Assembly: GCF_020005165.1 (NCBI RefSeq)
Contig: NZ_JAHCLT010000003.1
Span: 124,001-188,000, forward strand
From: Kangiella taiwanensis
Lineage (GTDB): Bacteria > Pseudomonadota > Gammaproteobacteria > Enterobacterales > Kangiellaceae
DNA length: 64,000 nt
Direction: 5' to 3'
Below the pieces are notes generated by a model that was not told where the DNA came from, made no database searches, and saw only the letters and a list, made by a program, of their open reading frames with translations. The translations under genes were made by a program, and so were the position numbers. Position 1 is the stretch's first letter. Each line of letters starts with the position of its first letter. This document shows positions 9,857 to 32,885 of this stretch, piece after piece.

Positions 9857-9997
9857 TGTACAAACAAGACAAAGTTGTCTTATAGTCCAAGACAAAGTGT
9901 ATAAACAAGAAAATGTTGATGTAATATGTACGGAAGATGATAAAAGTAACAATAACAACTTAAAGTTGATGTTTAGACTTAATGGTATGGAAAAAAA
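9857..9997 (+). repeat. Left transposon end with repeated TnsB-like sites
   Basis: Site L1 (9857-9877) starts at the terminal TGTACA. CAAGACAAAGT recurs at 9888-9898. L2 (9898-9918) matches L1 at 18 of 21 positions (TGTATAAACAAGAAAATG...). A weak fourth similarity, TGTACGGAAGATG, lies near 9927. The closely packed repeats resemble the overlapping TnsB sites of a Tn7 right end. The 75-codon open frame running through this region is not considered a gene. The tnsC stop follows at 9998. Confidence 0.75.
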
Positions 9998-10981
9998 TCA
10001 GTTATAATCGACAATTGTTTGCGAATAATCAAAAATCAATTTTTCTACCTCGGGAGTCATGGCTTCCTCAAGGAATTGCGTAGTTAAAAGCAGCTCCTCG
10101 TTATCTTGTTTATTAATTTTATAAAATAAATGCATACAATATATAAAAAATATTTCTGTAGAGATTTCTAGATCTAAATATGGCTGCTTATACTTCTCTG
10201 AGGTTCTAGTAAACAGCTCCCATACTTCTTTGGAGTAATTCTGTAGTCGAAACCCTTCTCTATATGCCTTCGGGGCAAAATAATTTGATGTGCTACATTT
10301 TTTTCCTTTATGTTTTACATCAAATAAGTCATAACCTCTAAGTAAATTTTCAATATCTTTTCTTGACCGTAGCCCAGGCACTCTCTCTTCTTGTGCAAAA
10401 AACCTTGATATTAGATGTGTTTTCCGAGATTGCTTTAACCACTTTCTTTTATCATTTAGTTCCGGCTCACCTAACAGTACAGATATAACTTTAACTCCGT
10501 TCGCTCTTACTTTATTTGTTAAGCTTTTTAGCAACTCTAATTCATTTATACCCAAATATTGCGCTTCATCAATAATAAATATTAATTTCTTCTCCGGTGT
10601 ATCAATGGCACGAGATGTAAAGAGCTTAACAAGTCTGTTCTCATTGTCAGTTACACCTCCTTTAATATGACTCGTGTCAATCTCCTCAGCCCAGTTAAAC
10701 TTGTTTAAAAGTGATTTATAAAAATTGTTTGGCGATTTTTTATAATCTTTCGTGTCAGCTATATATGAGAATATAGGGACATCTATATTGAATATTTTTG
10801 CTTTGTTAATTTTGATATACTCTATTGCTGTGCTCTTCCCTACTCTAGGGTAAGACCAAAGTACGCCTCCTGGGATACTATATGTATACCAGTATAGTAT
10901 TTTATTGATTACAACATCGATAGTAGATGTTGGTAATATTAGTTCACCTGTATAGAATGGATGTGTGCTATCTATGTTCAT
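9998..10981 (-). CDS. tnsC: TnsC-type AAA+ ATPase of Tn7-like transposon
   Basis: A 327-residue ATPase expected to link the target selector (TniQ) with the TnsA/TnsB transposase. The Walker A segment is SYPRVGKS (residues 43-50), in which S43 replaces the usual first glycine; Walker B is LIFIIDEAQ with D138/E139. A sensor-like VISVLLGEPEL follows. The ATG overlaps the tnsB stop as ATGA, implying translational coupling. It is the last gene of the operon and ends about 140 bp from the left tip. The TniB/TnsC family call is firm, and the pairing with TnsA places it with Tn7 rather than Tn5053. Confidence 0.9.
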   Translation of the reverse strand: MNIDSTHPFYTGELILPTSTIDVVINKILYWYTYSIPGGVLWSYPRVGKSTAIEYIKINKAKIFNIDVPIFSYIADTKDYKKSPNNFYKSLLNKFNWAEEIDTSHIKGGVTDNENRLVKLFTSRAIDTPEKKLIFIIDEAQYLGINELELLKSLTNKVRANGVKVISVLLGEPELNDKRKWLKQSRKTHLISRFFAQEERVPGLRSRKDIENLLRGYDLFDVKHKGKKCSTSNYFAPKAYREGFRLQNYSKEVWELFTRTSEKYKQPYLDLEISTEIFFIYCMHLFYKINKQDNEELLLTTQFLEEAMTPEVEKLIFDYSQTIVDYN

Positions 10982-12786
10982 AAGCTATCAAAAATATCAA
11001 AGCTGGGATAAGTGAAAGTACGTTTTGTCTTTTCTTTTTGTGGTTTATTTATATTAGTTCGTTGCGCTCTGTCTATTTCACTTTGCTTTAATTTTTTCAC
11101 AACATTTTTCTTTTGTTGATTTAGTTTCTTAGTATGTGCCAATACAGAACCTACATAGTCATATGCATCAAGTTCAATTTCTTCAGTGCTTAGCAACTTA
11201 TTAATTAACTCTCTATCGTAATAGGAGTGCCTTTTGCTCCATTTATTCTCTACAACAAAGTCACATAACTCCTCTCCATTAGATAAGTAGACCTTCAGTG
11301 TTCTTAGATCCAATAAGTTGTAAATGACATTGACCTTTTCGCCATAGTAACAATACGCTAGTTCGACATTTGTTGGATAATATTTAGCTCTTTTGAAGTT
11401 TATATGAGGCGGGCGAACTTGGCTCTCGGTCTTTCCTCTTATAGTTGCCTTTAACCTTCTATTTAGTAAGTCGTATACTGCATCTGTTTTAATTTTCCTG
11501 TATGGGAGAATATTTAATTCTGAATATTCTTTGATATAGTTGTTGGGGGACATGCAAATTGATGAGTGCCATTTATTGTTGTATTCCGAAATAGATTGCT
11601 CTATTAACTCCTTTATAAACTCGTAAGTAATTTCATTATCTCGCGCAAATTTATCAGGCTTGCACCGTTTTGGACTAGAATGCTTAGAGCCTAGGCTTGA
11701 TGGTAATATGTCAGATGATTTAGACCGAAGTGTCCCAAATACGCGCTCCACAACTGCATTTCCTTTAGGTCTTCCTCCAGGATTTAATCTTACAGTAGCG
11801 CCAGTGGCACGGCTTAACTTTTCAATTAATTGAGGTGAGCGGTGTGACATGTGGTTATCAAGCGCTATCAAGTCAAAAGCTATACAAGAAGATAAATTGC
11901 TACCAATCACATCCGTGTGGACTGTGTATAACTCCTCTCCTGTCAAAGAGTTTATTAAACAGTAAATTAGATCTAGCAACCGGTAATTTGAGTTCAGCGA
12001 AAATGAGTAACCGAGAATTTTTTTGCTTGCCACATCGATAGCAAGTATTAACCAAAACCTGTAGATTACTAATGCTTGCCCACTGTATGGGTTGTATGTG
12101 CTGAGTAGGAATGCAACATCTTCTGAGTGCCCATCAATTTGAACTATTGCAAATGGTCGCTTTGATTTTGGTAAAACCCCTTCAATACTACTACTAACGT
12201 CCTGAAAAGCTCTAAGATCATTAGCAATATCAATTGAAACTCTATTGTGCGTGTCATCTATTATATTGTGCCTTGAAAGGTTTTTGCAATATTGCCGAAG
12301 TGACTCCCGCCCCTTTGTTTTAGTGCACAAAGGATACTCACTATCTGAGAGTTTTAACTTTTTACATAGAGAAATAAATGATCTGTGAATATTAGTTAAT
12401 GATAGTTCTCTAAACTTAACACCTTCAACTCGTTTGCCAAGGTAAAGCTTTTCAATGTGCTCCTTTAATTCAGGGTAATCAATTATTAACTTCTTGAAAG
12501 CTCCTTGATAACCTTTATTGGACTTTTTAGTGTAACTCTTGACTCTTTTGTATGGAATTAAGCCTTTGAATCCAACTTTTACTCCGTATCTATCTCGACT
12601 TTCACACCTTTCGATCAATCTAATTAAGCTATTTCTAGCTATCCCAGTTACTTTTTGTATCGCTGAATACTTTGAACCTGAAATACGCATCAAAACTGCC
12701 TTTTTCCTATTGCAGTAAATAGATTTATTACTTTTACTAAGAGATGCTTCGTCAACACTTGGCCAATCATCTGTTGAGATGTTCAT
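10978..12786 (-). CDS. tnsB: TnsB-type DDE transposase
   Basis: A 602-residue integrase-fold transposase that binds the transposon ends and joins 3' ends to target DNA. An N-terminal helix-turn-helix region (about residues 25-65, ending ARNSLIRLIERC) precedes a retroviral-integrase core. The catalytic triad reads as D218 (VQIDGHSED), D310 (IALDNHM) and E347 (GNAVVERVFGTL). A WLILAIDVASKKILGY strand, typical of TnsB/Mu transposases, lies between the first two. The C-terminus is basic and lysine-rich, as expected for contact with TnsC. It follows tnsA by 2 bp. The catalytic site looks intact. Confidence 0.93.
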   Translation of the reverse strand: MNISTDDWPSVDEASLSKSNKSIYCNRKKAVLMRISGSKYSAIQKVTGIARNSLIRLIERCESRDRYGVKVGFKGLIPYKRVKSYTKKSNKGYQGAFKKLIIDYPELKEHIEKLYLGKRVEGVKFRELSLTNIHRSFISLCKKLKLSDSEYPLCTKTKGRESLRQYCKNLSRHNIIDDTHNRVSIDIANDLRAFQDVSSSIEGVLPKSKRPFAIVQIDGHSEDVAFLLSTYNPYSGQALVIYRFWLILAIDVASKKILGYSFSLNSNYRLLDLIYCLINSLTGEELYTVHTDVIGSNLSSCIAFDLIALDNHMSHRSPQLIEKLSRATGATVRLNPGGRPKGNAVVERVFGTLRSKSSDILPSSLGSKHSSPKRCKPDKFARDNEITYEFIKELIEQSISEYNNKWHSSICMSPNNYIKEYSELNILPYRKIKTDAVYDLLNRRLKATIRGKTESQVRPPHINFKRAKYYPTNVELAYCYYGEKVNVIYNLLDLRTLKVYLSNGEELCDFVVENKWSKRHSYYDRELINKLLSTEEIELDAYDYVGSVLAHTKKLNQQKKNVVKKLKQSEIDRAQRTNINKPQKEKTKRTFTYPSFDIFDSL

Positions 12787-12788
12787 AG

Positions 12789-13490
12789 CTATACACTTAT
12801 TTGAGTTCTATTGGAAAGCTGCGCGCTTTGTAGATCAGTTTGTACCTTTCCTTCTAAAGCTAATAAGAAAATGTGAGAGATGATTTCTTGGGTAGAGTAG
12901 TCTGATTTAAGTTCAAATAAGAATTCTTCTAAGGACTTATCATATATAGCAGAGCATAATGACAATATTCGTTTGATAAGAAGAGTATTTTTTGAAAGTG
13001 TAATTAAAAATGGATATATTTCTATCCAATTTTGAATCAATGTACTTTGATTTCGCAAGGATTTTTCTGTTATTACTTTTAAGCTAACCCCCTGCTTTTC
13101 TATTAATCCATAAAACTTATGCAGCCTCTTAGGCAGTGTAACACCATTATATTCTATTAGATGCTTTGACTCTTTAACTTCTATTATAGCCTCCTCTCCA
13201 TTTTTATTTTTTATCCAAGCATCCATTGTGTAATATTCTCCATTTTTTTTTGCGAGCCTTGGAAATTGCTCACATGCCGAAGTAATGTCATGATCAATCT
13301 CTATAAGTAGCCAGTTATAGTACTCTAGTCTGGATTCAAGAGTTATTAAGCGCTGCAGCTTAATGCTATATAAATAGTAAATATCATTGGATATAACCCT
13401 CCCCTTGCTAATCTTATGTGGGGTGACCTGTCCCCAATAAAAAGAGTATTTATGATTAGAATATTTCATAAGGATACAGGGAGCTAACAT
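12789..13490 (-). CDS. tnsA: TnsA-type endonuclease
   Basis: A 233-residue PD-(D/E)xK nuclease that cuts the 5' strands at transposon ends, making transposition cut-and-paste. The family pattern is clear: ESRLEYYNWLLIEID with E56, a CEQFPRL segment, YTMDAWI with D90, and AIIEVKESK with E104 and K106. The active site therefore appears complete. The second half is helical, as in the TnsC-interacting domain. The frame overlaps the end of tniQ by 35 bp; an in-frame ATG at 13469 would cut the overlap to 14 bp and may be the true start. Confidence 0.9.
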   Translation of the reverse strand: MLAPCILMKYSNHKYSFYWGQVTPHKISKGRVISNDIYYLYSIKLQRLITLESRLEYYNWLLIEIDHDITSACEQFPRLAKKNGEYYTMDAWIKNKNGEEAIIEVKESKHLIEYNGVTLPKRLHKFYGLIEKQGVSLKVITEKSLRNQSTLIQNWIEIYPFLITLSKNTLLIKRILSLCSAIYDKSLEEFLFELKSDYSTQEIISHIFLLALEGKVQTDLQSAQLSNRTQISV

Positions 13491-14748
13491 ATGCTTTAAT
13501 ATCTATTTGATAAATGTAACATTCGACGCTATTTGAAATTTTTTCTAGTTCAATTAATTCGTTAAAACGTCTATCTACAAAGTCCATTGGCCTCTGATCA
13601 AATATGTATAGCTCAACCCTTCTTCCTTCCGTAACAAAAAGATAAAAAAATATGTAGTCGATATATGGTCGTCTTAAAAGCTTCTTAGTAAAATATTTCT
13701 CATTAATTAATGCATCAAAGTAGGCCAGTCTTAGATAGGTTGTTAGCCTCTTCCTTAATAAATATGGCACCAATTTTTTATATTTAAATATTATCGGATA
13801 CTCTATATCCTTTAAGTCAGTTCTCAGCCGGAGAGCTAAATCCTTATTTGACAGAATTTTTTTTTGAAATTCTGTTGCTCTATTTTTATATCCTAATTTT
13901 TCTTCGTTTGTCAGATTGCTGTTTTCTATCAAGCTATAAAACTTGCGTATGTAAACCCTTTCAAACTGACGCAAAATATTATTAACACACAATTCTAGCC
14001 ATTCATTAGTATTTATAAAGCTTTGATCTAATGGAGCAATTTTAGAGTAATCAATAGATGTGTATATATAAGGCTTTCTAAGTACAATACTCATCCAAAA
14101 ATAATATTTTTTTATGTGAAACAATAGCTTTTTAAAGTTACAACTTCCTAGGATGTTACAAATGTTGACATTAACCACATTAAATAACTCATTATCCTTT
14201 ACATGCCGGTTTATATAATTTTTAAAGGGAATAACTTCTTTTAGTATTAGCTTTTTGAAGTCTTCATCTGGTAGAAATTTGTCTTCGTTAAACAGGGTGT
14301 ATTTACACTTTGTGCAATAAATTACCCCTGACTTTCTTGTCAAATCCCTAGACTCGCATGAGGGGCATCTTGTTGTAAGTACGCAACCGTGGATTAAGCA
14401 AAGTCTAAAATAGCTGTTATGAAAAACAGCATGGAAGTTGTGCATTGCACATTTAGGGCAGAAATAGAATGGGCTAATATTTTCAGGCCTAAGAGCATGA
14501 GAGGTGTTAAAATTCCTTGTTCCAATGTAATCAATTTTATATAAAAAATATCTGCTTGGTTGAAGATTAAAAACTTTTATAAGGTTGGTAGAGTTACCAC
14601 TTAAAAATGGTCTGTTAGAACGATTGGGTTTAATGCCAAACAGTTTTAAGGCATCTTGGTATTCTAACTTATCTATATAAGATAGTTTGTATATTACTGA
14701 AATTATCGATTCAAATGGATATAATAAATTTTTATTTACGATAAACAT
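13456..14748 (-). CDS. tniQ: TniQ/TnsD-type target-selection protein
   Basis: A 430-residue protein with the TniQ zinc-binding region: CPKC (C97, C100), RLCLIHGC (C117, H120), RCPSC (C128, C131) and YCTKC (C145, C148). The N-terminal segment (YPFESIISVIYKLSY) resembles the family's opening helices. TniQ/TnsD proteins choose the insertion site by recognising DNA or a partner complex. At 430 residues it is between short TniQ and full TnsD, so it may read a specific DNA site by itself. It is the first gene of the operon, preceded by a GGGGGA ribosome site, and very AT-rich. No glmS, comM or tRNA gene lies beside the element, so its target is unknown. Confidence 0.9.
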   Translation of the reverse strand: MFIVNKNLLYPFESIISVIYKLSYIDKLEYQDALKLFGIKPNRSNRPFLSGNSTNLIKVFNLQPSRYFLYKIDYIGTRNFNTSHALRPENISPFYFCPKCAMHNFHAVFHNSYFRLCLIHGCVLTTRCPSCESRDLTRKSGVIYCTKCKYTLFNEDKFLPDEDFKKLILKEVIPFKNYINRHVKDNELFNVVNVNICNILGSCNFKKLLFHIKKYYFWMSIVLRKPYIYTSIDYSKIAPLDQSFINTNEWLELCVNNILRQFERVYIRKFYSLIENSNLTNEEKLGYKNRATEFQKKILSNKDLALRLRTDLKDIEYPIIFKYKKLVPYLLRKRLTTYLRLAYFDALINEKYFTKKLLRRPYIDYIFFYLFVTEGRRVELYIFDQRPMDFVDRRFNELIELEKISNSVECYIYQIDIKAYVSSLYPYEIF

Positions 14749-15000: not shown

Positions 15001-15249
15001 CTACCAGTTTTCCTCATCTATTTCTGGCGGCGGTACTTTTTCTTGAATACTGACTTCAAGATTTAAAGAAGACAAAACCATAAATAGTATGTCGAGTTTT
15101 TTGCTTTCTCCACCACGCTCTAAATTTGAAATAGTAGCTTGCCGTAAGTTGAAGGTTTTAGCTACATCAGATTGTGAAAGATTTTTCTTTTTTCTAAATC
15201 GTCTAATAGCCTGCCCAAGTTCTAAGGCTGAACGCGCTGTTATTATCAT
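15001..15249 (-). CDS. HipB-like XRE family transcriptional repressor
   Basis: An 82-residue helix-turn-helix protein. The sequence RFRKKKNLSQSDVAKTFNLRQATISNLERG (residues 17-46) is a typical Xre/HipB DNA-binding domain; the following LDILFMVLSSLNLEVSI matches the short beta-strand tail of HipB. An excellent AGGGGGGAAG ribosome site precedes the ATG. Two TATAC-N8-GTATA operators overlap its own promoter, the spacing known for E. coli HipB (TATCC-N8-GGATA), so autorepression is likely. Unusually, no hipA follows: the next gene is tniQ, and the only HipA-like kinase is at 31407, at the other end of the element. It could also control tns expression. Confidence 0.85.
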   Translation of the reverse strand: MIITARSALELGQAIRRFRKKKNLSQSDVAKTFNLRQATISNLERGGESKKLDILFMVLSSLNLEVSIQEKVPPPEIDEENW

Positions 15250-15328: not shown

Positions 15329-15650
15329 AAGAAAAGACATGCGAATCAAAGTAAGAAAATAATTCAATTTGCGTTGACTAAAATGTCTTTGCTCTAAATT
15401 ACTCGAAAAGCATACGTTAAAAGTCATTTATAAGTAGGCCGGCATTAACTCTTGATGAGGTATGGTCAAGATTCGTGACAATTCGACCAAAGTCTTAACT
15501 ATAAGAAATATATCGAATACCCCAATGAAATCAAACCAGATTTTGTGCTCTTGACACACCCGTTGTTCAATTATTTTTTGCATTTGTTATATCTATGCTT
15601 TCAACTTATAATTTTACTATGCACTTCAGTATCGATGATACGCTTAAATT
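15329..15650. other. Intergenic region between hipB and merR, no gene seen
   Basis: About 320 bp without a credible coding frame. It must contain the merR promoter near its right end (AT-rich TTTTACTAT near 15612 is a weak candidate). Nothing else recognisable, such as an IS remnant, was found by eye. Confidence 0.5.
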
Positions 15651-16043
15651 ATGTATGTAATTAGTCAACTCGCAAAACTTGCAGGCGTGAATGTTGAAAC
15701 CGTCAGATATTATGAGCGGTGCGGGTTAATTGCACAACCGGAAAAGCCCGCTAAAGGTTATCGTCATTATCCTGAAGCGACTTTGAGTCGCATTCGATTT
15801 ATTAAACGAGCTCAAGAGCTGGGATTTTCTTTGGATGAGATCGCTAACTTACTGATACTCGAAGAGTCCTCTTGTCAAGAAGTACAAAGTATAGCCAGCC
15901 ACAAACTTGCCAGTATTCGTGACAAAATGGCCGATCTACGCCGTTTAGAATCTAGTCTGAATGATTTACTGAAACAATGTGCAAATAATTCTGAACAGAC
16001 GCATTGTCCGATTATTACCTCCCTTCTTCCACACAATAAATAA
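15651..16043 (+). CDS. merR: Mercury-responsive regulator MerR
   Basis: A 130-residue MerR-family activator/repressor. The winged helix (AKLAGVNVETVRYYERCGLI, residues 8-27) is followed by a long dimerisation helix. The three Hg(II)-binding cysteines are present as C75, C110 and C119; their spacing of 35 and 9 residues is identical to that of Tn501 MerR (C79, C114, C123). It is encoded on the same strand as the mer structural genes, with the operator-promoter lying between merR and merT, rather than divergently. This implies a separate merR promoter upstream. Confidence 0.95.
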   Translation: MYVISQLAKLAGVNVETVRYYERCGLIAQPEKPAKGYRHYPEATLSRIRFIKRAQELGFSLDEIANLLILEESSCQEVQSIASHKLASIRDKMADLRRLESSLNDLLKQCANNSEQTHCPIITSLLPHNK

Positions 16044-16060
16044 AAAAATCGCCAAATCTC

Positions 16061-16092
16061 TTGACTCCGTACTTGGATACGGAGTTTATACT
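16061..16092 (+). promoter_or_regulatory. MerR-controlled promoter/operator PmerT
   Basis: -35 TTGACT (16061-16066) and -10 TATACT (16087-16092) are separated by a long 20-bp spacer containing the perfect dyad CTCCGTACTTGGATACGGAG (16065-16084). Overlong spacers with the dyad between the boxes are the signature of MerR-family promoters, which the regulator untwists when metal is bound. It lies 34 bp upstream of merT. Confidence 0.93.
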
Positions 16093-16125
16093 ATTTGCCA
16101 TTAAATCATTTAAATTGAGTAAACC

Positions 16126-16473
16126 ATGACAAAAAACAATTCCAGTTTACCATTAGCTGGCGGTATTGCAGCTGCTATTGGTGCGGGGCTTTGTTGTGCT
16201 GGGCCCCTCGTTTTGTTGTTACTGGGAGTTAGTGGCTCTTGGATTGGCAATTTGACCTTGTTGGAGCCATACCGTCCCATTTTTATCTTGTTGGTTGTGG
16301 CTTTGTTTAGTTTTGCAGGCTGGAAAGTATACCGACCTCTAGAAAACTGTGAAGCAGGAACCGCTTGTGCAACACCGCAGGTGCGTAAACGTCGCCAAAT
16401 CATTTTCTGGGGAACCGCGTTCATTGCATTAATATTGGTTACGAGCAATTACTGGATCATGTGGTTTGCTTAA
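16126..16473 (+). CDS. merT: Mercuric ion transporter MerT
   Basis: A 115-residue inner-membrane protein with three hydrophobic segments (about 8-35, 47-68, 88-110). It moves Hg(II) from MerP into the cytoplasm for reduction. The vicinal cysteine pair GLCCAGPL (C23-C24) is in the first helix, and the second pair (ENCEAGTACATP) is in the cytoplasmic loop, matching MerT. It is first in the operon merT-merP-merC-merA. Confidence 0.94.
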   Translation: MTKNNSSLPLAGGIAAAIGAGLCCAGPLVLLLLGVSGSWIGNLTLLEPYRPIFILLVVALFSFAGWKVYRPLENCEAGTACATPQVRKRRQIIFWGTAFIALILVTSNYWIMWFA

Positions 16474-16514
16474 GCCGTTGATTGAATATCTTACTGTAAC
16501 ACTTGGAGACAATG

Positions 16515-16805: not shown

Positions 16806-18899
<2,094 letters not shown>

Positions 18900-19016
18900 G
18901 CTTTATCTTTCGTCGGAAAAGATATTTATGAGTCGGCTTTTGGTTTCAAGTGGTACGGTACTACCAATGTACTGCATATTTCTTCGTGGAAAGTTTCTTC
19001 AGTAACTGTTTGAGAG

Positions 19017-23754: not shown

Positions 23755-26700
23755 TTAAGTCGTTAGTGTTTTTTCCTTCAGTTTACCTTTTGAAAACCAG
23801 GCAAACAAAACGGGTAGAACAAACAGGGTTAAAAATGTGGCTGTTATCAACCCGCCTACGATAACGCTGGCTAGTGGCTTTTGTATTTCTGCGCCAACGC
23901 CATTTGATAACAACATTGGTATTAAGCCTAACGCAGAAGTCACCGCTGTCATTAATACTGGTCTAAGCCTGGATACAGCACCATCAAATACGGCTTCGCT
24001 AACAGGTAAGCCATCCTTGATACGCTGATTGATACTTTCAACCATTACTACGCCGTTAAGTACCGCAACGCCAAACAGAGTAATGAATCCGACAGAACTG
24101 GGTACCGATAAATACTGTCCTGAAATCCAGAGTGAAAATACCCCGCCAATAACGGCCAGTGGTACATTTACTAGAATCAGCATAGCCTGACCGATAGATG
24201 CAAAGGCAAAATAAAGCAACAAGGCGATAAGCGCCAGCGATAATGGCACAACCAACGACAAACGTTTTTGTGCTCGCTGTTGATTCTCGAATTGTCCGCC
24301 TATGTCCACGGAATAACCCGTCGGCAAATCAACCTGCTCAGCAATGGCTGTACGAATGTCTGCAACCACACTGCCCATATCACGTCCCTGCACATTGGCC
24401 TGAACGACTACTCTGCGCTGAACATCGTCTCGGCGTACCTGCGGTGGGCCGGAAGCAATATTCACAGAGGCCACATCGCCGAGGCGAACCCAGGCTCCTG
24501 AAGGTGCCTGCAAACGAAGGTCAGCGATAGTGTCACGATCTTGACGAAAGCGTTCATCCAGTCGAACATAAATATCATAGCGTTCGTTACCATTGATGAT
24601 TTGTCCAGAGCTGGCGCCGCCAAGTCCATCACGCACCACTTCCATGACATCCGCCACGTCGAGCCCATAACGAGATAGAGCTCGGCGATTAGGCTTCACA
24701 ACCAATTGAGCTTCACCGACAATTTGCTCCATGGCAACATCGCGAGCGCCCTCGACTTCTTTAACTACAGCCTCTATTGCCTGTCCCTTTTTAGCCAACA
24801 CATCAAGTTCTTTGCCAAAGAGTTTAATCGCCAGTTGTGCTTTAACCCCCGACAGCAGCTCGTCCACACGGGTCGCAATCGGTTGTGAGAAATTGAACAG
24901 TAAGCCTGGATGTTGCTCGAGTTTTTGCTCCATCAGTGATTGAAGTTCATAACGATTATCAGCGCTGCTCCATTCCGCCACAGGCCTAAGACCAATATAT
25001 ATCTCGATATTGTTCACTGGTTCAGGATCACCGCCAATTTCGGCACGCCCAATACGTGACAGCGCATAAGTGACTTCGGGGAACTCCATCAGCATCGCTT
25101 CAAGCTTAGGCGCTACTTCGAGCGCAGTATCTAGGCTGGAGGAAGGAGCTAGCGTTACCCTTAGGTTAACCGTTCCTTCTTCTAGCTCAGGCACAAACTC
25201 GGTACCCAGGCGCGGTATAACCAGTGCCGTAGCAATCACCATCACCACAGAAATACCCACCACGATTTTTCTGTGGTTCATGGCCCACGACAAGCCCTTG
25301 CGATAGAGTCTATCAAGTGGTTTCAAGACGAAACTTTCCCGTGGTCGTATCCCTTTGCGAAACAAATAGGTGGCCAAAGCTGGGACTATGATTAAAGCTA
25401 CAATCACTGCAGACAACATAGACAGCATGATACTGATAGCCATCGGCTGGAATAGTTTGGCTTCGACCCCTTCAAAACTGAATAGCGGCATGAACACAAC
25501 TAAAATAATTGCTGTAGCAAAAAATATGGGTCTTGCTACCTCTCTTCCAGCCTCTTGTAAGCGTAAGGGAATGCCATGATTATCATGGGAAGCATCAACA
25601 GGATCGGAAGTGTTGTCCCGAATCATTACCTGTCTATCTTTATCATGGGTGGCATCGGGATGGGTCAAATGTTTGAACATGTTTTCGACCATCACTACGG
25701 AACCATCCACGAGCATACCAATGGCTACAGCAATCCCCCCCAGCGACATTAAATTCGCCGAAATACCGAACCACGCCATCACCATCAAGGCAATACCGAT
25801 GGAAATTGGGATTGAAATCAGCACTAGTAATGTGGCACGCAAGTTCATTAGGAACAGCGCCAAAATAACGACAATGAAGACAAACGCCAGTAATAGAGCA
25901 TTGACAACAGTATCAACCGCTTGCGTCACCAGGTCAGCCTGATCGTAATAAGGCTCAAACTTAACTCCTTCCGGTAACGCCTGATTAATACGTTCGACAC
26001 GGGCATTAACCCCATCAATGGTGCTTTTAGTATTGGCTCCTAAACGTTTTAATACAATACCAGAGACGACTTCCCCCAGTTCCTCAACCTTTCCATCAGG
26101 GGTTCTGCGTGTCATGGTCACTGCCCCTTGGCGGATTTCACTCCCCAGACTCACTTTGGCCACATTAGATACTGTGATAGTAGTGCCATCGACTGTTTTC
26201 AGGGGGACTTGGCGGAGCTGTTCCAGCCCTTGCTTGCCATGATCGAGCCAGCCGGTACCTCGGATCACTAATTGCTCCTGGCCACGATTCATATACCAAC
26301 CTCCAACATTGGTATTGTTTCGCTCCAGAGCCGCCATGATGTCGTTCTGCGTTAGACCGTAAGATAATAGCTTTGACGGATTCAAATCGACCTGATACTG
26401 ACGCACCTCGCCGCCGAAGGACAGCACATCGGTCACGCCTTCGGCTGGGATAAGCAATAATTTTACCACCCAGTCATTTAAGCTGCGTAGCTCCATTGCA
26501 TCGAAGCCCGATCCGGATTCGGCAACCAGTAAATACTGATAGACCTGCCCCAGCCCCGAAGTATTTGGGCCCATTTCTGGTGTACCAACGCCTTCAGGAA
26601 TCAGCTCTTTAGCAGCTTGAAGTCGCTCGAATACCAGTTGTCGGGCAAAATAAATATCGGTTCCTTCTTTGAAAACCACGGTGACGCCAGACAAGCCAGT

Positions 26701-26961
26701 CTTTGAGATAGACCTTACTTCTTCTACGTCAGGCAAGGCGTACATCACTGCTTCAATCGGGTAGGTTATCAGCTGCTCAACTTCTTCAGCAGCCAAGCCA
26801 GGAGCTTCGGTGTTGACCGAGACCTGAACGTTGGTAACATCTGGAAATGCATCAAGATTCAGCCTTGGAATAATAAAAAAGGCACTGACCGTTAGAGTAA
26901 TAAGCGCAATCGCAACCAGCAAACGGTTAGTGACCGCCCAATCGACAATTCGATTAAACAT
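23755..26961 (-). CDS. czcA: Heavy-metal RND efflux pump, CzcA type
   Basis: A 1068-residue inner-membrane RND transporter of the HME class. It pumps divalent cations from periplasm or cytoplasm through the CzcB/CzcC channel using proton flow. The N-terminus is typical (LNLDAFPDVTNVQVSVNTEAPGL), and the TM4 proton-relay segment is AVAIGMLVDGSVVMVEN. Two periplasmic porter regions and the second membrane half are complete. A hydrophilic insertion of about 40 residues (PDATHDKDRQ to NHGIPLRLQ) follows TM4 and contains several His/Asp residues. Good AAGGAG site. Third gene of czcCBA. Confidence 0.93.
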   Translation of the reverse strand: MFNRIVDWAVTNRLLVAIALITLTVSAFFIIPRLNLDAFPDVTNVQVSVNTEAPGLAAEEVEQLITYPIEAVMYALPDVEEVRSISKTGLSGVTVVFKEGTDIYFARQLVFERLQAAKELIPEGVGTPEMGPNTSGLGQVYQYLLVAESGSGFDAMELRSLNDWVVKLLLIPAEGVTDVLSFGGEVRQYQVDLNPSKLLSYGLTQNDIMAALERNNTNVGGWYMNRGQEQLVIRGTGWLDHGKQGLEQLRQVPLKTVDGTTITVSNVAKVSLGSEIRQGAVTMTRRTPDGKVEELGEVVSGIVLKRLGANTKSTIDGVNARVERINQALPEGVKFEPYYDQADLVTQAVDTVVNALLLAFVFIVVILALFLMNLRATLLVLISIPISIGIALMVMAWFGISANLMSLGGIAVAIGMLVDGSVVMVENMFKHLTHPDATHDKDRQVMIRDNTSDPVDASHDNHGIPLRLQEAGREVARPIFFATAIILVVFMPLFSFEGVEAKLFQPMAISIMLSMLSAVIVALIIVPALATYLFRKGIRPRESFVLKPLDRLYRKGLSWAMNHRKIVVGISVVMVIATALVIPRLGTEFVPELEEGTVNLRVTLAPSSSLDTALEVAPKLEAMLMEFPEVTYALSRIGRAEIGGDPEPVNNIEIYIGLRPVAEWSSADNRYELQSLMEQKLEQHPGLLFNFSQPIATRVDELLSGVKAQLAIKLFGKELDVLAKKGQAIEAVVKEVEGARDVAMEQIVGEAQLVVKPNRRALSRYGLDVADVMEVVRDGLGGASSGQIINGNERYDIYVRLDERFRQDRDTIADLRLQAPSGAWVRLGDVASVNIASGPPQVRRDDVQRRVVVQANVQGRDMGSVVADIRTAIAEQVDLPTGYSVDIGGQFENQQRAQKRLSLVVPLSLALIALLLYFAFASIGQAMLILVNVPLAVIGGVFSLWISGQYLSVPSSVGFITLFGVAVLNGVVMVESINQRIKDGLPVSEAVFDGAVSRLRPVLMTAVTSALGLIPMLLSNGVGAEIQKPLASVIVGGLITATFLTLFVLPVLFAWFSKGKLKEKTLTT

Positions 26962-26977
26962 AGAGTCTCCTTAATGC

Positions 26978-28288
26978 TTAGTGGTTATGGGGATCAAAAC
27001 CGCCTTTGGCGATTTGTGATGCAACAAAAAAGGCACCATTGGTAACAATACGCACACCTGGCTCAATGCCTGTGATTTCACGTAATGCCCCCAGCGCACG
27101 TCCCAGTTCTACCTCTACTGGACGGTATTTACCGGAACTCACTTCGACATAAACTGCCCAGTCGCCATCGGGGTTACGCATCAGAGCGGATTCCTGAACT
27201 GCCAATACAGGTTTTTCAGTACGGAAGCGAAAAAAGACCTCAGCGAACTGGCCTGGATGCAATTTATGCTCCCGGTTATTCACCAACAGGCGTACCGTTC
27301 GAGTACGAGTCACAGGATCGATGGTGTGCGCCTCCTGTGACACTTTGCCCTGAACACGTAAATCACCGGCAACAATGTCCGCTAATGTTCCAACGGGAAG
27401 TGACAGTGAACGATCTGCGGGCAGATGAGCCTCTACCCAAAGTTGTTTCTCATTGGCCAGTTTAATCAGAGGAGTACCAGATTCGACCCTTTGCCCCTGC
27501 TCGAAGTCGTCAGATAGCACAGAACCATCCGTTTCGGCACGTAGGGTGTATTGTCCCAATGCTTTAATATCTTGTGATGCCAGAGACTTCAAATCTGATT
27601 CAATTAACCCATAGGCCTGTAAGGTCGCACGAGCCGCTTCCCAGCTGGCTTTGGCACGGATATATCGTTGTTCTCCAACGGTTTTGCGGCCAAGCTCCCG
27701 GACTCGTTGCCACTCAGGCCAAGCGGTACGATAGTCTGCCTGTGCTTGCGCGACACTCTCGCTGAACAGGGTAACCAGTGGCTGCCCTTGCTTGACGTGG
27801 TCGCCTAGCGCAACATGACGGCGCAATACTACTGACGGTACTCTCGGAGATACTTGGTAACTGGTGTAACCATTGGATAGGATCTCACCCGGTGCGTAAA
27901 ATTCAAAATTTACCTTCTTTGCAGTAAGGGTGCCAACTTGGATATCAGCAAGTGTCATTTGAGAAGTGCTCAGTGACGCAGAATTAGCGGTTTCTCCATG
28001 GCCGCGTTCATCTTCCTTGCCATCGCCCTCACTATGTTCATCATCATGGCCTTCACTGTCGGAGCTGCCGTTAGGGTGATTTTCCTTATTGGCATGACTT
28101 GCATCTTCATCACCCGCGTTAGGTTCGTGCTCCTGATGGGAAGTGCCTTCCTCTTGTTCGTGAACCTCTGAAGCAGACGTGGTTTTGTCATGCACATGTT
28201 TTGAGCCACTTGTAATTTCGGCATGCGCTGGGTTTACCGTAATAATTCCAGCGCCCAAAATAGCGATCAATATTTTGTTCATATTCAT
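26978..28288 (-). CDS. czcB: Periplasmic adaptor (membrane fusion) protein, CzcB type
   Basis: A 436-residue adaptor joining CzcA to CzcC. After a signal peptide (MNMNKILIAILGAGIITVNPAHA) comes a long His/Glu/Asp-rich stretch (residues 27-105: EHEPNAGDEDASHANKENH and similar) likely to bind metal in the periplasm. Barrel-sandwich/lipoyl (PRVPSVVLRRHVALGDHVKQGQPLVTL), alpha-hairpin and beta-barrel regions follow. It lies 16 bp before czcA and 2 bp after czcC. Confidence 0.92.
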   Translation of the reverse strand: MNMNKILIAILGAGIITVNPAHAEITSGSKHVHDKTTSASEVHEQEEGTSHQEHEPNAGDEDASHANKENHPNGSSDSEGHDDEHSEGDGKEDERGHGETANSASLSTSQMTLADIQVGTLTAKKVNFEFYAPGEILSNGYTSYQVSPRVPSVVLRRHVALGDHVKQGQPLVTLFSESVAQAQADYRTAWPEWQRVRELGRKTVGEQRYIRAKASWEAARATLQAYGLIESDLKSLASQDIKALGQYTLRAETDGSVLSDDFEQGQRVESGTPLIKLANEKQLWVEAHLPADRSLSLPVGTLADIVAGDLRVQGKVSQEAHTIDPVTRTRTVRLLVNNREHKLHPGQFAEVFFRFRTEKPVLAVQESALMRNPDGDWAVYVEVSSGKYRPVEVELGRALGALREITGIEPGVRIVTNGAFFVASQIAKGGFDPHNH

Positions 28289-28290
28289 GT

Positions 28291-29544
28291 TTATTGTCCT
28301 GTTTTCAATTCGTTGCTGGCTTCGCTGTGGGGGGGCACTGCAGGGGTAATTAAACGGCCGGATTGCAACAATACTTCTGTTAGAGCAAGTTGGGTCTGCT
28401 TTTCCAGTGAAATACCGGCCAGTAGGCTCTCTGCACGTTGATTTAATGCTAACAAGTAATCAGTGGTAGACAGATCGCCACTACGCCACTGGCGTTCTAA
28501 CAAGTCAGCACTATTCTCAACTCTGCCACGAGCAAGTTCTAGCCATTGACGATATTGTTGGTCATAACGTTTCCAAGCAGCTTGTGCCGCCTGCCAATCA
28601 AACCGTAGCTTGCGATAAACAGCTAAGAAACGCGCCTCAGCTTCTAGCGCTGCACGGTTAGCCACACGAGTTTCGGCACTATAGTCATTGCGGACATTCA
28701 GGGGGATGGAAAAGGTCAATCCTACTGAGTTTTCTCCCCCATCGCGGCCGGCATTAAGACCAAATGTAGGCTCTGCCTTGGCAGCACGTCGAGTGACTTC
28801 GACTCCTTCCTTGACTGACTTCCAGTGAGCCTGGGCGCTGGCAACGGCTGGATGTTGCAGTAACTCTTGATCATTAATGGATATAGGTTCTTTAGGCCAG
28901 AAGTCTTCTGGAATGCCACCCCGTTCAGGCGTCCACTGTGGTAAAAGTTCGCGCACTTTGTTTTCAGCCTTTTGTAAAGCGACTTCAAGTTCAGCGACCT
29001 GTGCTAGCTGTTTTGACAAGGATAAAAAGGTGAGCTCAGCATCAATACTACCGATATCACCTGCTTTTTGGCGTTTCTCAGCCAGGTTTAGTAGAGCGTT
29101 AAGCTGATCTTTTTGATCCAGAGCAATGGTGGCTGCACGATTACTGGCTTGCCACTCGACCAATGCTGATAATGCTTCGGCGGTTTTTCTCATGAGCCGC
29201 TGACTATACTGTGCTTTAGCTGCTTGTCGGATAAAAGCTGCTTGCTGCTTTTTTGCACCTCGTCTATCCCACCAGTCGACAGTTTGAGAAATACCTACAC
29301 GGTAGTTATTTTCTTCACCGCTTTGCTCTAGTTCAGAGGACAGCTCTGGGTTGTAGAGTGGCTGTTCTGATGCGTCAGCGGTGGCCTTGAAGCCCTGTAA
29401 CTGTTCTCGGGCCGCGATGACATCGGGGTGCTGCTTTACTTGAGATACCAACCAGCGTTGCCAATCGGTTGATTGCGCCTGTGCTGAAGGTATCAATAGA
29501 TACAAAGCAGCACACATCGCATAAGAAACTGACAGTTTCTTCAT
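28291..29544 (-). CDS. czcC: Outer-membrane efflux channel, CzcC type
   Basis: A 417-residue TolC-family outer-membrane factor. The signal peptide (MKKLSVSYAMCAALYLLIPSAQA) is followed by two similar halves of long helices; the VGISQTVDWWDRRGAKK and VGLTFSIPLNVRNDYSAET strands mark the barrel segments, as in CzcC. It is the first gene of czcCBA; czcI lies 100 bp upstream. Confidence 0.9.
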   Translation of the reverse strand: MKKLSVSYAMCAALYLLIPSAQAQSTDWQRWLVSQVKQHPDVIAAREQLQGFKATADASEQPLYNPELSSELEQSGEENNYRVGISQTVDWWDRRGAKKQQAAFIRQAAKAQYSQRLMRKTAEALSALVEWQASNRAATIALDQKDQLNALLNLAEKRQKAGDIGSIDAELTFLSLSKQLAQVAELEVALQKAENKVRELLPQWTPERGGIPEDFWPKEPISINDQELLQHPAVASAQAHWKSVKEGVEVTRRAAKAEPTFGLNAGRDGGENSVGLTFSIPLNVRNDYSAETRVANRAALEAEARFLAVYRKLRFDWQAAQAAWKRYDQQYRQWLELARGRVENSADLLERQWRSGDLSTTDYLLALNQRAESLLAGISLEKQTQLALTEVLLQSGRLITPAVPPHSEASNELKTGQ

Positions 29545-29644
29545 GAAATTTCCTCACAATTATAAATTAAAGTACATCAGGCATAGCGACATAGATACTT
29601 GCACAACGCTATACCTAGGAGTAATAAGTTTATTTGTACTTCAA

Positions 29645-30010
29645 CTAAGCAATTGGAGGTGGATTTTCAGGGAATCCAATATGAGAGTGATAATGGGAAC
29701 GGTAGTCTGAAATAGCGCCTCTCTGATAAAGAGAAGCAGAGACGTCTTGACGACTAATTAAGAATATATGTGATGAACCATGACAATGACAACAGTGATG
29801 GCAGTCAGGCTGATAAATTACACGGTCTTTAGATTCGGCTGGCGACTTATCCATATCAGCCAAAGATGCCTGAGCATCACCCTGGTGTTCATGCTCAAAG
29901 GAAAGATGTTGAGCGCCAGACTGATGAAATTTATGAACATCCGCCACGGCAACTACCGATTGCAGGGCAATCAGAATAGCCAAAAAACATATCAAATAAC
30001 GGCGGTTCAC
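29645..30010 (-). CDS. czcI: CzcI-like periplasmic metal-responsive protein
   Basis: A 121-residue protein with a signal peptide (residues 1-24) and dense His/Cys clusters (FEHEHQ, CHHCCHCHG). The tail, YHSHIGFPENPPPIA, resembles the conserved SHIPEGPERPQW ending of CzcI proteins. CzcI influences expression of czcCBA in Cupriavidus, by a mechanism not fully known. It is upstream of czcC on the same strand, the usual place. Confidence 0.75.
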   Translation of the reverse strand: MNRRYLICFLAILIALQSVVAVADVHKFHQSGAQHLSFEHEHQGDAQASLADMDKSPAESKDRVIYQPDCHHCCHCHGSSHIFLISRQDVSASLYQRGAISDYRSHYHSHIGFPENPPPIA

Positions 30011-30300
30011 AATAAAAAGATTCTCTACATTTAATCTAATGACTTTAAGTTGCCAAATTCTAACAGATTATGCATTAGCCCACAAAAATTAGATACCAAA
30101 CTTTAGATGCGTGCCGCAAAAAGCGTTCTGATGAAAGAATTATCGCGTAAACGTTTAATCTAATTCCTACTTTTTTGTAGATTCATTAAGCGCTTTGAAA
30201 GCGCTAACTCTTTTTAAGTTGCACAATAGAAGTGTTTAGACTTTGTTCTTAAGCAGCTCAGTTGACGAAAAAAATTAATAAACCACTATGAACTAACTAG
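30011..30300. other. Intergenic region upstream of czcI, no gene seen
   Basis: About 290 bp between the czcI start and the end of the exonuclease gene. It should contain the czc promoter, read leftward. A dyad AGCGCTTTGAAAGCGCT (30189-30205, 8-bp arms) is the only clear structure; it could be an operator or the exonuclease terminator. No metal-regulator gene is adjacent. Confidence 0.5.
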
Positions 30301-30837
30301 TCACAACTGAGGCATTAGTCTCAAAACATTTAGCGCAGTGAATGCATCATTTAATGCCGAGTGGTGAGGCTCTACGATCTCAGCCCCCACAATTTCGGCA
30401 GCTTTCTTCAGTCCTACTGGTTTAATTCTTATTGGACGAGACTTTCTAAACGCTTTCTTTAGGTCGATATACTCCAGTTCAAACGTTGTGTTCTTTAGCT
30501 CGTATTTTGAAATCTGCTTTAAGATAAATGTTCTATCAGAGATGCCCCAGCTAGCAATCTTATTAACGTTGTTGGATTGCACCCATTTATCGAACCTTTC
30601 CATGACCACAGGAAACTCGGGAGCTGAGTCTACTTTTGACTGAATATCACCCAGAAGCTCCATGCACTCTTCGGATAGCTCTGGATTAGACATAGGTTTT
30701 ACATAACTATTAAAATTGGATTGAATCTCGTAATTTTCATCAACGACTACGGCTCCAAGCTCTAAAAGCTCTGACTTATTCTCTTCCTTCTTCCAATGAT
30801 TTGCAAAGCTACACTCCTGATCAAAAATCATCAGCAT
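30301..30837 (-). CDS. DEDDh-type 3'-5' exonuclease-like protein
   Basis: A 178-residue protein of the RNase T/DnaQ superfamily. ExoI appears as IFDQEC (D-x-E), ExoII near residue 95 as SWGISDRTFIL, and ExoIII as HHSALNDAFTALNVL (H-x4-D). An LLELGAVVVDENYEI strand and GLKKAAEIVG helix match KapD/Eri1-like exonucleases. The catalytic set appears intact, so it should trim 3' ends of DNA or RNA. The frame opens with a TTG at 30840, but ATG 30837 after AAGGAG is the better start. Divergent from the nucleotidase-hipA pair. Confidence 0.8.
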   Translation of the reverse strand: MLMIFDQECSFANHWKKEENKSELLELGAVVVDENYEIQSNFNSYVKPMSNPELSEECMELLGDIQSKVDSAPEFPVVMERFDKWVQSNNVNKIASWGISDRTFILKQISKYELKNTTFELEYIDLKKAFRKSRPIRIKPVGLKKAAEIVGAEIVEPHHSALNDAFTALNVLRLMPQL

Positions 30838-30859
30838 CAATTATTCTCCTTTGCGCTTT

Positions 30860-30889
30860 GACATAGACATAGACATAGACATAGACATA
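30860..30889. repeat. Five tandem GACATA hexamers
   Basis: GACATA is repeated five times without interruption in the 130-bp divergent promoter region between the exonuclease and the nucleotidase-hipA genes. Copy number could change by slippage and alter spacing in either promoter. Confidence 0.95.
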
Positions 30890-30907
30890 ATAGTAGCATA
30901 AAGTGAA

Positions 30908-30950
30908 TAAAGTCTATAAATATCAATGATATAAGTTTGTTATAATAATT
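30908..30950 (+). promoter_or_regulatory. Promoter-like repeat copy B upstream of the nucleotidase-hipA operon
   Basis: The core ATAAGTTTGTTATAATAA (30931-30948) is identical to copy A at 14814-14831, and the preceding 20 bases are also similar (AAGTC, TATAAAT, CAA). It contains a consensus TATAAT (30941-30946), 20 bp before the nucleotidase ATG, and follows a small dyad ATATCAATGATAT (30920-30932) that could be an operator. Confidence 0.6.
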
Positions 30951-30966
30951 AAAGGGTGCATGTTTC

Positions 30967-31401
30967 ATGATCGTTTATGTGGATATAGATGGCGTTTTAG
31001 CTGACTACGATCGCGCTTATGAAGAAGTGCGTATGGGTATGCCAGAAACCAAGTACCCTCAATCACTACCTGGTTTCTTTACAGGCCTTCACCCAATTCA
31101 AGATGCTGTGACAAGCTTTCAAGTTCTTTCACAACATCACGATACTTACATTCTTACAGCGCCGTCTAATAGAAACCCTCTTAGTTACACAGAAAAGCGT
31201 TTATGGGTAGAAGAGCACTTAGGCTTTGATGCCACAGAAAAACTCATCATTTGTTCCAATAAGGGGTTACTTAAAGGTGATATTTTGATTGATGACAATA
31301 TAGATGGCAAAGGGCAAGAAAACTTTGAAGGTAAGCTTATTAAGTTCGACCGAAGGATTAAAGGTGCTTGGCAGCAGATCATCCAGCAACTCTGTGGTTA
31401 A
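30967..31401 (+). CDS. 5'(3')-deoxyribonucleotidase-like HAD hydrolase
   Basis: A 144-residue HAD-fold phosphatase of the NT5C family. Motif I is VYVDIDGVLADYD (two catalytic aspartates), motif II YILTAPS, and motif IV DILIDDNIDG. Such enzymes remove phosphate from dNMPs. The length is short but normal for bacterial members. It lies 5 bp before hipA, so the two are almost surely co-transcribed. Nucleotide removal next to a HipA kinase and an exonuclease suggests a stress or defence role (inference). Confidence 0.82.
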   Translation: MIVYVDIDGVLADYDRAYEEVRMGMPETKYPQSLPGFFTGLHPIQDAVTSFQVLSQHHDTYILTAPSNRNPLSYTEKRLWVEEHLGFDATEKLIICSNKGLLKGDILIDDNIDGKGQENFEGKLIKFDRRIKGAWQQIIQQLCG

Positions 31402-31406
31402 TTGCC

Positions 31407-32522
31407 ATGATCAATAAAGTATACGCATTCATCGAGGGTTTAGAGGGTACACCGTTGTTATGTGGAGAGTTGGTCTTAAATAAAGATAAAACCACAAGCT
31501 TTACGTATTCAGATAACTACTTATCTCACCCTAATACATTCCCACTTGATCCACTAAACCTTCCACTGGGTAACAATGTTTGTCACTCTGACACTGCTAA
31601 TTCCACTTTTGGGGTTTTCACCGATGCAGGCGCAGACTCTTGGGGCAAGAAACTACTTCATAACATTTACTCTAAGCAACCCCAAAATATACTTGAATAT
31701 CTCCTTGCTTACTCTGGTACAGGGGTCGGTTGTTTGAGATTTAGCCTTTCACGCAATTCAGTGAAATCTAGACTTTATCAGAACAAGCTTAAGGACATCC
31801 CGCAAATTCTCACTGCAAAGAATGATGCGCTGTCAGGCGAAAGTCTGTCCAAGCCAAGTTCTAACATACTTTCTAAAGGAATTGGAATAGGAGGTGCAAG
31901 ACCCAAGAGTGTTCTTACTATTGATGATATAGACTATATCGCAAAGTTTCAGAGGATTGATGATAAGTTTAATAATGTTAGAGCTGAGCATGCGACGATG
32001 AGTTTGCTGCAGAAAATCACTGGTAATGTTGCACAGACTCACATTGTTGAGAGCCTAAGTGAAGAAATATTATTGGTTAAAAGGTTCGACTTGGAATATG
32101 GTCGGCCAACCCACCACTTCATCAGTGGGCATTCGATAATAAACATGAATAAAGTAAAGGAATCTATGGCTACGAATAGGTACTCTTACGGCTTTTTGGC
32201 TGAATTTATATTGAAGTATGGAGCTGAGCCTGAGCGAGACGCTGAAGAGCTATACAAGAGAATGGTCTTTAACGTCTTAATAGGTAATACTGATGACCAT
32301 CCTAGAAATCATGCATTCCTGTATTCTTTCGAAAAGAAAAACTGGAGGTTATCGCCGGCTTACGATGTACTGCCTATATTGTCTAGAGGACAACATGGAC
32401 TAGGTATTGGACAAAAAGGACGAGTCGGAAGCATTTATAACTTACTATCACAGCACTTCCGGTTTAGTTTAGATAAAATATATGCACACGATATCGTTAC
32501 GTCAATTCAAAAAGCTGTTTAA
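31407..32522 (+). CDS. HipA-family serine/threonine kinase toxin
   Basis: A 371-residue kinase. The N-terminal subdomain contains FGVFTDAGADSWGKKLL and YLLAYSGTGVGCLRF, both HipA features. The C-terminal domain has GGARPKSVL, the catalytic loop GNTDDHPRNHAFL and the metal-binding LSPAYDVLP. These residues match active HipA, which phosphorylates glutamyl-tRNA synthetase and stops growth. ATG 31407 is 5 bp after the nucleotidase stop; an in-frame upstream start at 31368 overlaps that gene and is rejected. No antitoxin gene is adjacent; the HipB-like protein is encoded at 15001-15249. Confidence 0.88.
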   Translation: MINKVYAFIEGLEGTPLLCGELVLNKDKTTSFTYSDNYLSHPNTFPLDPLNLPLGNNVCHSDTANSTFGVFTDAGADSWGKKLLHNIYSKQPQNILEYLLAYSGTGVGCLRFSLSRNSVKSRLYQNKLKDIPQILTAKNDALSGESLSKPSSNILSKGIGIGGARPKSVLTIDDIDYIAKFQRIDDKFNNVRAEHATMSLLQKITGNVAQTHIVESLSEEILLVKRFDLEYGRPTHHFISGHSIINMNKVKESMATNRYSYGFLAEFILKYGAEPERDAEELYKRMVFNVLIGNTDDHPRNHAFLYSFEKKNWRLSPAYDVLPILSRGQHGLGIGQKGRVGSIYNLLSQHFRFSLDKIYAHDIVTSIQKAV

Positions 32523-32866
32523 GTATCTTGGCAACAATTAATTGGATTTCTAGCTGCTCGTAAAGTTCTTGAACGAACGCTAACCCCTTTACACCAAACA
32601 CTTCTGTTTTGGTTCGTTCAATGATATTTCCTAAATGAGTGACAGAAAGAACCTCTTGCCTTAAACTGCACTTGCACTCCATCTAAATAGACCTGAGAGT
32701 TGCAGCAGTAGATCCCAACTTCGTACTAAAAGCGGGTCTCAAACGTAACATCGTACAAATTCGATACAAAACGTCTTGTAAATTACAATCTTTTGCTAAT
32801 ATTAAAAGCTTGCGTTACAAGTAAAAGTTGATAAGTGAGGGTAATATCAATATCTTAAATAAAGCC
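32523..32866. other. Right subterminal region of the transposon
   Basis: No convincing gene. A 61-codon minus-strand frame (32497-32682) overlaps the hipA end and shows no family I know. From the right tip inward, an ACAAGAC core within TTTACAAGACG lies at about 32769-32788 (minus strand), and TGTACGATG lies near 32755. These may be extra, weaker TnsB sites. Confidence 0.45.
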
Positions 32867-32885
32867 ACTTTGTCTTGTTTGTACA
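32867..32885 (-). repeat. Right terminal inverted repeat
   Basis: Minus strand TGTACAAACAAGACAAAGT is identical over 19 bp to the left tip at 9857-9875. The tip ends in TGT...ACA as in Tn7-type elements. The bases just outside are TCTAG. Confidence 0.85.

Follow-up and report, generated by a model that had tools for sequence, protein, structure and literature searches.

The locus

The window considered here is a stretch of 64,000 nucleotides on a contig of the 2.56-Mb genome of Kangiella taiwanensis, a gammaproteobacterium that we take to be marine, in keeping with the published papers on Kangiella; all coordinates below are window positions. Between 9857 and 32885 lies a 23.0-kb element bounded by a perfect 19-bp TGT...ACA inverted repeat (TGTACAAACAAGACAAAGT at 9857-9875 and its exact reverse complement at 32867-32885), the sole 19-mer inverted pair within the window. 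The repeat encloses tniQ-like, tnsA, tnsB and tnsC genes together with mer, czc and CDF genes, as a first-pass annotation of this DNA had claimed; the repeat proved exact, and the open reading frames (ORFs) and their families were confirmed. The element is very probably a composite Tn7-like transposon, which captured a metal-resistance block of the Tn3 family and moved recently among Kangiella. Its ends and transposition genes are as follows.

9857-9875, plus strand: left terminal inverted repeat, 19 bp (inverted-pair search, mismatch count)
9857-9918, plus strand: three repeats resembling TnsB sites, cores at 9865, 9888 and 9906, the last degenerate (putative sites, from sequence likeness)
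9998-10981, minus strand: tnsC, AAA+ ATPase (AAA_22, E 3.5e-9; leave-one-out profile, E 4.4e-44)
10978-12786, minus strand: tnsB, DDE transposase (leave-one-out profile, E 1.7e-86)
12789-13490, minus strand: tnsA, endonuclease (PF08722, E 2.8e-5, below cut-off; leave-one-out profile, E 3.6e-13)
13456-14748, minus strand: putative tniQ-like target selector, first gene of the operon (hhalign to TniQ of relatives)
15001-15249, minus strand: gene of a helix-turn-helix regulator upstream of tniQ (HTH_3, E 1.5e-9)
32867-32885, minus strand: right terminal inverted repeat (inverted-pair search; identity to the SAG07 copy described below stops exactly at 32885)

Transposition genes and ends

All four transposition genes lie on the minus strand with open frames and run toward the left end, from which the tnsC stop codon is 141 bp away. 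Allowing up to 3 mismatches, the 18-mer of the terminal repeat is matched three times where 0.08 matches are expected, and the exact 19-mer end has no further copy elsewhere in the host genome. Pfam bears out the earlier family assignments for mer, CDF, czc and TnsC; TnsB and the TniQ-like protein have no match there at E<=0.001 (TnsB reaches Mu-transpos_C at E 0.0038), and TnsA, at 25.0 bits, stays below the PF08722 cut-off of 26.5 bits. Profiles built from relatives, leaving out the Kangiella element's own sequences, recover TnsA, TnsB and TnsC with the E values listed above. Family profiles that include the Kangiella sequences match TnsB, TniQ and TnsC in the Protein Data Bank (PDB); the TnsB profile matches TnsAB at E 8e-12, and TnsB alone has the same TnsAB as its best match, at E 0.13.

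The residues that we take to be catalytic can be read, as had been stated for TnsA, TnsB and MerA. D218, D310 and E347 of TnsB and K49 and D138 of TnsC are invariant in 5/5 aligned sequences; E64 and D90 of TnsA are kept in 7/7, R721 Tn7 included, and K106 is common to the Kangiella element, K. grimontii and R721. Aligned by hhalign to TniQ of eight relatives, the TniQ-like protein scores a probability of 96.4 and E 1.2e-9 over residues 8-159, with 0.1% for a TnsA control. It was not recovered by a leave-one-out hmmsearch with the relatives' TniQ profile, had no TniQ among its PDB matches when searched alone, and did not match R721 or R751; an AlphaFold model from the single sequence without an alignment (pLDDT 38) was uninformative. 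The N-terminal ~150 residues of this protein, and these only, appear to belong to the TniQ/TnsD family.

A predicted TnsB-type DDE transposase, an adjoining TnsC-type AAA+ ATPase, TnsA, and TGT/ACA ends with repeated TnsB-like sites together place the element among Tn7-like transposons. It resembles Tn7 and its close kin (the copy in plasmid R721) in having TnsA, TnsB, TnsC, a TniQ-family protein and TGT/ACA ends, in the repeated motifs near an end, and in TnsA, where E64, D90 and K106 align. However, the Kangiella TnsB has no blastp match to R721 TnsB at E<=10, the tniQ-like gene comes first, there is no 5-bp target duplication, and the genes run toward the near end, whereas those of Tn7 run inward. 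Judging by their families, TnsA and TnsB would cut at the TGT/ACA ends, TnsC would act as an ATP-dependent go-between, and the TniQ-like protein would choose the target.

Origin of the metal-resistance block

15457-15490, plus strand: remnant terminal inverted repeat of the Tn3 family, at which the metal block starts on the left (differs from the G034/Alteromonas repeat at 3 of 20 bases; 0 such matches expected)
15651-18899, plus strand: merR, merT, merP-like (HMA domain), merC and merA (Pfam/NCBIfam)
19017-21195, minus strand: SBF-like transporter and ArsP_1 permease (protein family scan)
21370-23194, minus strand: two CDF cation efflux proteins (Pfam/NCBIfam)
23755-30010, minus strand: czcA-, czcB- and czcC-type genes (23755-29544) and a 121-aa ORF (Pfam/NCBIfam)
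30028-30029, no strand: point at which homology to the Tn3-borne metal block ends on the right, putative composite junction (comparison with G034)

Motifs of MerA, among them CCAG, are present. A CzcA motif has no exact match, and the CzcA call rests on the family scans. Most of positions 15456-30028 recurs piecewise, at 82-95% identity, in a sister Kangiella genome (G034), whose block lacks the 1.4 kb at 19971-21358 that holds the ArsP_1 permease. There the block sits in an 18.2-kb Tn3-family element with terminal repeats identical at 35/40 positions and a 5-bp duplication, TTCTT, which encodes a DDE_Tnp_Tn3 transposase (E 3e-151), a tyrosine recombinase and a KfrA-like protein. In the Alteromonas macleodii plasmid pKD02, such a block is likewise flanked by two copies of the 20-base repeat and accompanied by an annotated Tn3-family transposase. 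In contrast to these elements, which have their own transposase and both repeats, the Kangiella element keeps one repeat and adds the ArsP_1 permease: a single Tn3-type repeat was found in the window at <=3 mismatches, at 15457, where the block homology begins, and no Tn3 transposase among the scanned ORFs of the element. The block is a remnant of a Tn3-family transposon rather than a member of the family, with one repeat left and tnpA not found.

Because its start carries a Tn3 repeat and most of it lies inside Tn3-family transposons in G034 and pKD02, the block was probably captured from such a transposon. The base composition agrees with this account (G+C of 33% in the tns part, 45% in the metal block, 38% in the right arm and 42-44% in the flanks). 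An ancestral Tn7-like element would have received the metal-resistance transposon, the transposase half and one end of which would then have been lost at about 30028, leaving the mer-CDF-czc block dependent on the Tn7-like machinery. The 82-95% identity and the extra 1.4 kb suggest that the capture was old, or that the donor was a relative of the G034 element. The first-pass description of the element as dedicated to heavy-metal resistance is too strong, because the block looks like a captured Tn3-family transposon. Tn3-family transposons nested in Tn7-like elements are known, according to passages of PMC8649781, and Tn7-like carriers of metal resistance have been described (parts of PMC10702557 and PMC8649781). 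One of these, the Burkholderia BGImetal island, also carries heavy-metal genes but, in the parts of PMC10702557 that deal with it, has the gene order tnsA-tnsB-tnsC-tniQ; it was found with Pfam models, and those for TnsB and TniQ would miss the Kangiella element.

Borders and recent movement

A related Kangiella genome, G017, has an uninterrupted allele that is compatible with borders at 9857 and 32885. Homology to G017 extends through the left flank to 9806 and resumes at 32891 as a 46-bp match (87%); the two flank matches are separated by 38 bp in G017, while in the window 55 bp of flank remain unaligned. The right-flank motif (<=3 mismatches) occurs in 2/20 genus genomes, the host and G017.

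An exact scan of genome_contigs with the 18-mer end gave ten loci. Nine show no further likeness to the element (~7.5 are expected by chance at even base composition), and the tenth is in Kangiella sp. HD9-110m-PIT-SAG07. Over 6,744 bp this genome differs from window 26142-32885 at only 4 positions (99.94% identity), and the match stops exactly at the right terminal base. The SAG07 copy occupies an unrelated locus, one base past the stop of a LuxR-type response-regulator gene; no DNA matching its flank was found in the 19 other genomes of the genus, and the HK gene beside it occurs in 1/20, SAG07 itself. As a LysE-type gene differs by 22% between SAG07 and the host while the element is nearly identical, the element is far younger in both than the split of the species. 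The putative junction at ~30028 falls inside the shared part, so at least the right part of the composite moved as a unit.

The uninterrupted G017 allele and the SAG07 copy ending exactly at 32885 together argue for a real and recently mobile element. The Tn7-like transposon with Hg and Zn/Cd/Co-type resistance genes that was proposed at first has thus gained both an empty site in a related genome (with a right-flank match of only 46 bp) and a second locus that has an identical right end. Recent movement among Kangiella species is documented at the level of sequence for the right end, and from it present-day transposition would seem likely. A cut-and-paste mechanism, the resistance phenotypes and the order of the capture events are what we infer here, as is the involvement, if any, of the TniQ-like protein in the choice of dif (see below).

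The right arm holds the following genes.

30301-32522, no strand: RNase_T exonuclease, NT5C-like and HipA-like genes (protein family scans)

The HipA-like gene (31368-32522) is at the right end of the element, and no HipB-like partner was recognised beside it.

Relatives of the tns genes

Relatives of TnsB are distant. A tblastn search of plasmids gave 65/72,556 records, all below 60% identity and the best at 27.7%, and TnsB is <30% identical to every relative found. Among sequenced relatives of the host, matches occur in 5/40 family genomes at E<=0.001 and in 2/394 order genomes at E<=1e-20, the host included in both counts. Scans with the single TnsB protein gave 45 pattern matches in genome_contigs and 23 in viral_contigs, with 0 confirmed in either, and a megablast of the whole element against the plasmids found 1/72,556 records, matching in the metal block only. 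In a TnsB tree the Kangiella element groups with its relatives, apart from R721 Tn7 and R751 Tn402, with weak support (78/94) and long branches.

The plasmid TnsABC-TniQ clusters (K. grimontii pNY3A, Burkholderiales, P. aeruginosa p12939-PER) have related TnsB (23-28% identity), TnsC and TnsA, but carry other cargo and differ in gene order: tniQ follows tnsC in 13/13 loci (12 plasmid, 1 chromosomal), with tnsA detected in 12/13 and the tniQ of L089 several kb away, whereas it is the first gene in the Kangiella element. When seven TnsB and TniQ proteins of relatives (L006, L008, L063, L066) were compared with Pfam, none reached a TnsB- or TniQ-type cut-off, the best being TniQ of B. vietnamiensis with 23.9 against 27 bits. 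Annotation does not overlook the lineage altogether: some of the plasmid relatives carry the label of a DDE-type or Mu-type transposase.

One relative with clear ends is that of K. grimontii pNY3A (L006 4083-19805), 15.7 kb long, with TGT/ACA ends alike at 17/20 positions, a 5-bp duplication AGATA, and ACAAGA-type repeats that, by eye, it shares with the Kangiella element. It was the only one of 13 relatives with convincing ends in a search for TGT/ACA plus a duplication, run without a shuffle control; in the other 12 the best pair was 12-13/20, or none appeared at the threshold. This relative carries CBASS-like genes (annotated as nucleotidyltransferase, ThiF, Mov34 and SAVED). The genus also has a second, different Tn7-like family (L063, L064 and L065, in G032, G016 and G018), with TnsB 21-23% identical. 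K106 is replaced in 4/4 TnsA of Burkholderiales relatives (L008, L090, L091, L094), by R in three and by another residue in the fourth, hinting at a cleavage-deficient TnsA and replicative transposition there.

Proximity to dif

Just outside the left end of the element lies dif, at which newly replicated chromosomes are unlinked.

9779-9806, plus strand: chromosomal dif, separated by 50 bp from the left end of the element (genus-wide pattern, GC skew)

We take 9779-9806 to resemble E. coli dif and its half-sites. A 26-base dif pattern (9781-9806, <=3 mismatches) occurs exactly once in each of 16/20 genus genomes and in none of the other four. GC skew, at +0.06 to +0.07 over the sequence up to 8 kb, turns negative with the 6-10 kb interval and stays so, except for a positive stretch at 14-20 kb inside the element. 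The tns-side end is 50 bp from the sole dif found in a 2.56-Mb genome. Random insertion this near to dif is expected with a probability of ~5e-5, about once in 20,000, for a proximity that was noticed afterwards.

The Tn3-family metal transposon in G034 occupies nearly the same terminus position, on the same side of dif and 84 bp away from it. Passages of PMC6000758 describe a metal-rich 'hot block' at the GC-skew reversal of Kangiella genomes, including a Zn/Co/Cd island in K. profundi. Immediately to the right of the element, window 36611-40987 contains a CopD-like gene and another RND efflux gene, consistent with such a block at the terminus.

A scan of 14 loci, on plasmids or in the same order, in addition to the window and L063-L065, turned up no convincing dif-like site near the relatives; in K. 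grimontii none came closer than 5 mismatches. No dif was seen on the available right-side flank of the SAG07 copy. In two closely related plasmid elements, L008 and L094, the shared sequence, which presumably ends where the element does, stops inside two annotated integrase genes, no more than 174 and 80 bp from their starts; the two integrases are 29% identical to each other. The shared sequence of L089 and L091 ends near the start of a gene adjoining an integrase gene. Neither pair's shared sequence seems to start with TGT. A tyrosine-recombinase or integrase gene is annotated <=2 kb from the tns genes in 6/13 plasmid loci (L008, L009, L089, L091, L094, L096), and within 2 kb none is annotated in L006, L007, L090, L092, L093, L095 and L097; these 13 loci were picked by hand, mostly high-ranking ones, from the 65 records, and their annotation tables are incomplete. 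The recombinases may be targets, resolvases or chance neighbours. According to parts of PMC8649781, Tn7-like elements that lack TnsA tend to acquire resolvases of the tyrosine or serine type, and since K106 is replaced in the Burkholderiales TnsA, the recombinases beside the plasmid relatives may instead resolve cointegrates.

Weighing the explanations

Five observations weigh against a composite transposon that recently moved. The window copy has no 5-bp target-site duplication (TTTCT on the left flank and TCTAG on the right have only TCT in common). Its left border is fixed less tightly than the right, with ~50 bp of left flank unaligned with G017 and a right match there of 46 bp. No relative was detected for the C-terminal two thirds of the TniQ-like protein. 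The metal block is only 82-95% identical to the G034 copy and holds the additional ArsP_1 segment. Finally, the left arm and tns genes were not found in SAG07 (0/1), an absence that is uninformative in a genome 55% complete. A target duplication is a losable trace of insertion, and its absence does not exclude machinery of the Tn7-like family; it does lower the claim of a simple, undisturbed insertion for the window copy. It would suit an immobile relic, in which ends and genes are intact but the copy was fixed by later deletion or recombination and no longer moves, as would the lack of another exact 19-mer in the host genome and of any relative above 30% identity in the searches made. The four open tns frames and a right part 99.94% identical in another species make such a relic unlikely. 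The missing duplication, along with the unseen left end in SAG07, could also mean that the block travelled between species in a larger vector (by plasmid, integrative element or natural transformation) and was then integrated by homologous recombination. That process would not be expected to give what is seen in SAG07, identity stopping exactly at the right terminal base with unmatched flanks, and we regard this route as very improbable.

The 50-bp distance may reflect insertion directed to dif, or only a permissive hotspot at the terminus, and one instance cannot decide. If insertion were directed, the TniQ-like protein, or a complex containing it, would recognise dif or the Xer proteins bound to it. 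Such targeting would explain a distance so rarely expected by chance, and it would go with the shared ends of L008 and L094 inside divergent integrase genes and with the six plasmid loci near recombinase genes. It would also have a precedent in the IS1202-family insertion sequences with TnsB-like transposases, called dif hunters in the passages of PMC10132070 concerned. These, like the Tn5053/Tn402 res-site hunters, have TnsB-related transposases that insert beside recombination sites, but IS1202 inserts 5 bp from the XerC site and the Kangiella element lies 50 bp from the XerD side, its targeting being putative. The assignment of XerC and XerD half-sites at the Kangiella dif is our assumption. 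The case is a single one, noticed post hoc; the G034 transposon, which is of another family, sits in nearly the same spot, and together with the general 'hot block' at the Kangiella terminus (as portrayed in parts of PMC6000758) it suggests that the spot may simply be permissive. Nor was dif seen beside the SAG07 copy, whose left flank is outside the available sequence, or in K. grimontii, and the recombinases by the plasmid relatives may be those elements' own resolvases, K106 being replaced in 4/4 Burkholderiales TnsA. We therefore hold direction to dif to be rather unlikely. The wider proposal, that this Tn7-like clade hunts the resolution sites of tyrosine recombinases, the Kangiella element targeting dif through its TniQ-like protein and the plasmid relatives inserting at the starts of tyrosine-recombinase genes, is speculative to a similar degree. 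Judged from listings and selected passages, searches of the literature on Tn7 and dif brought up no paper recognised as describing a dif-directed Tn7-like transposon, and one on mercury resistance in Kangiella genomes brought up none.

Implications

What appears to be new is a TnsB <30% identical to all relatives found, a TnsB and a TniQ that reach no Pfam cut-off, and tniQ as the first gene of the operon. New also are a metal block that starts with a Tn3-family terminal repeat and a tns-side end 50 bp from dif. If the clade does hunt resolution sites, the element would stand beside the res-hunting Tn5053 family as its Tn7-type counterpart directed to dif, and the pile-up of Kangiella metal genes at the replication terminus would become easier to explain. 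A true link to dif would give Tn7-like elements a nearly universal, single-copy chromosomal address, and would make the 'hot block' of the Kangiella terminus explainable and testable. The element itself suggests a Tn7-type lineage that has a gene order of its own and whose TnsB and TniQ stay below the Pfam cut-offs. It also illustrates metal resistance that probably moved out of a transposon of one kind into one of another kind and was later carried between species of marine bacteria.

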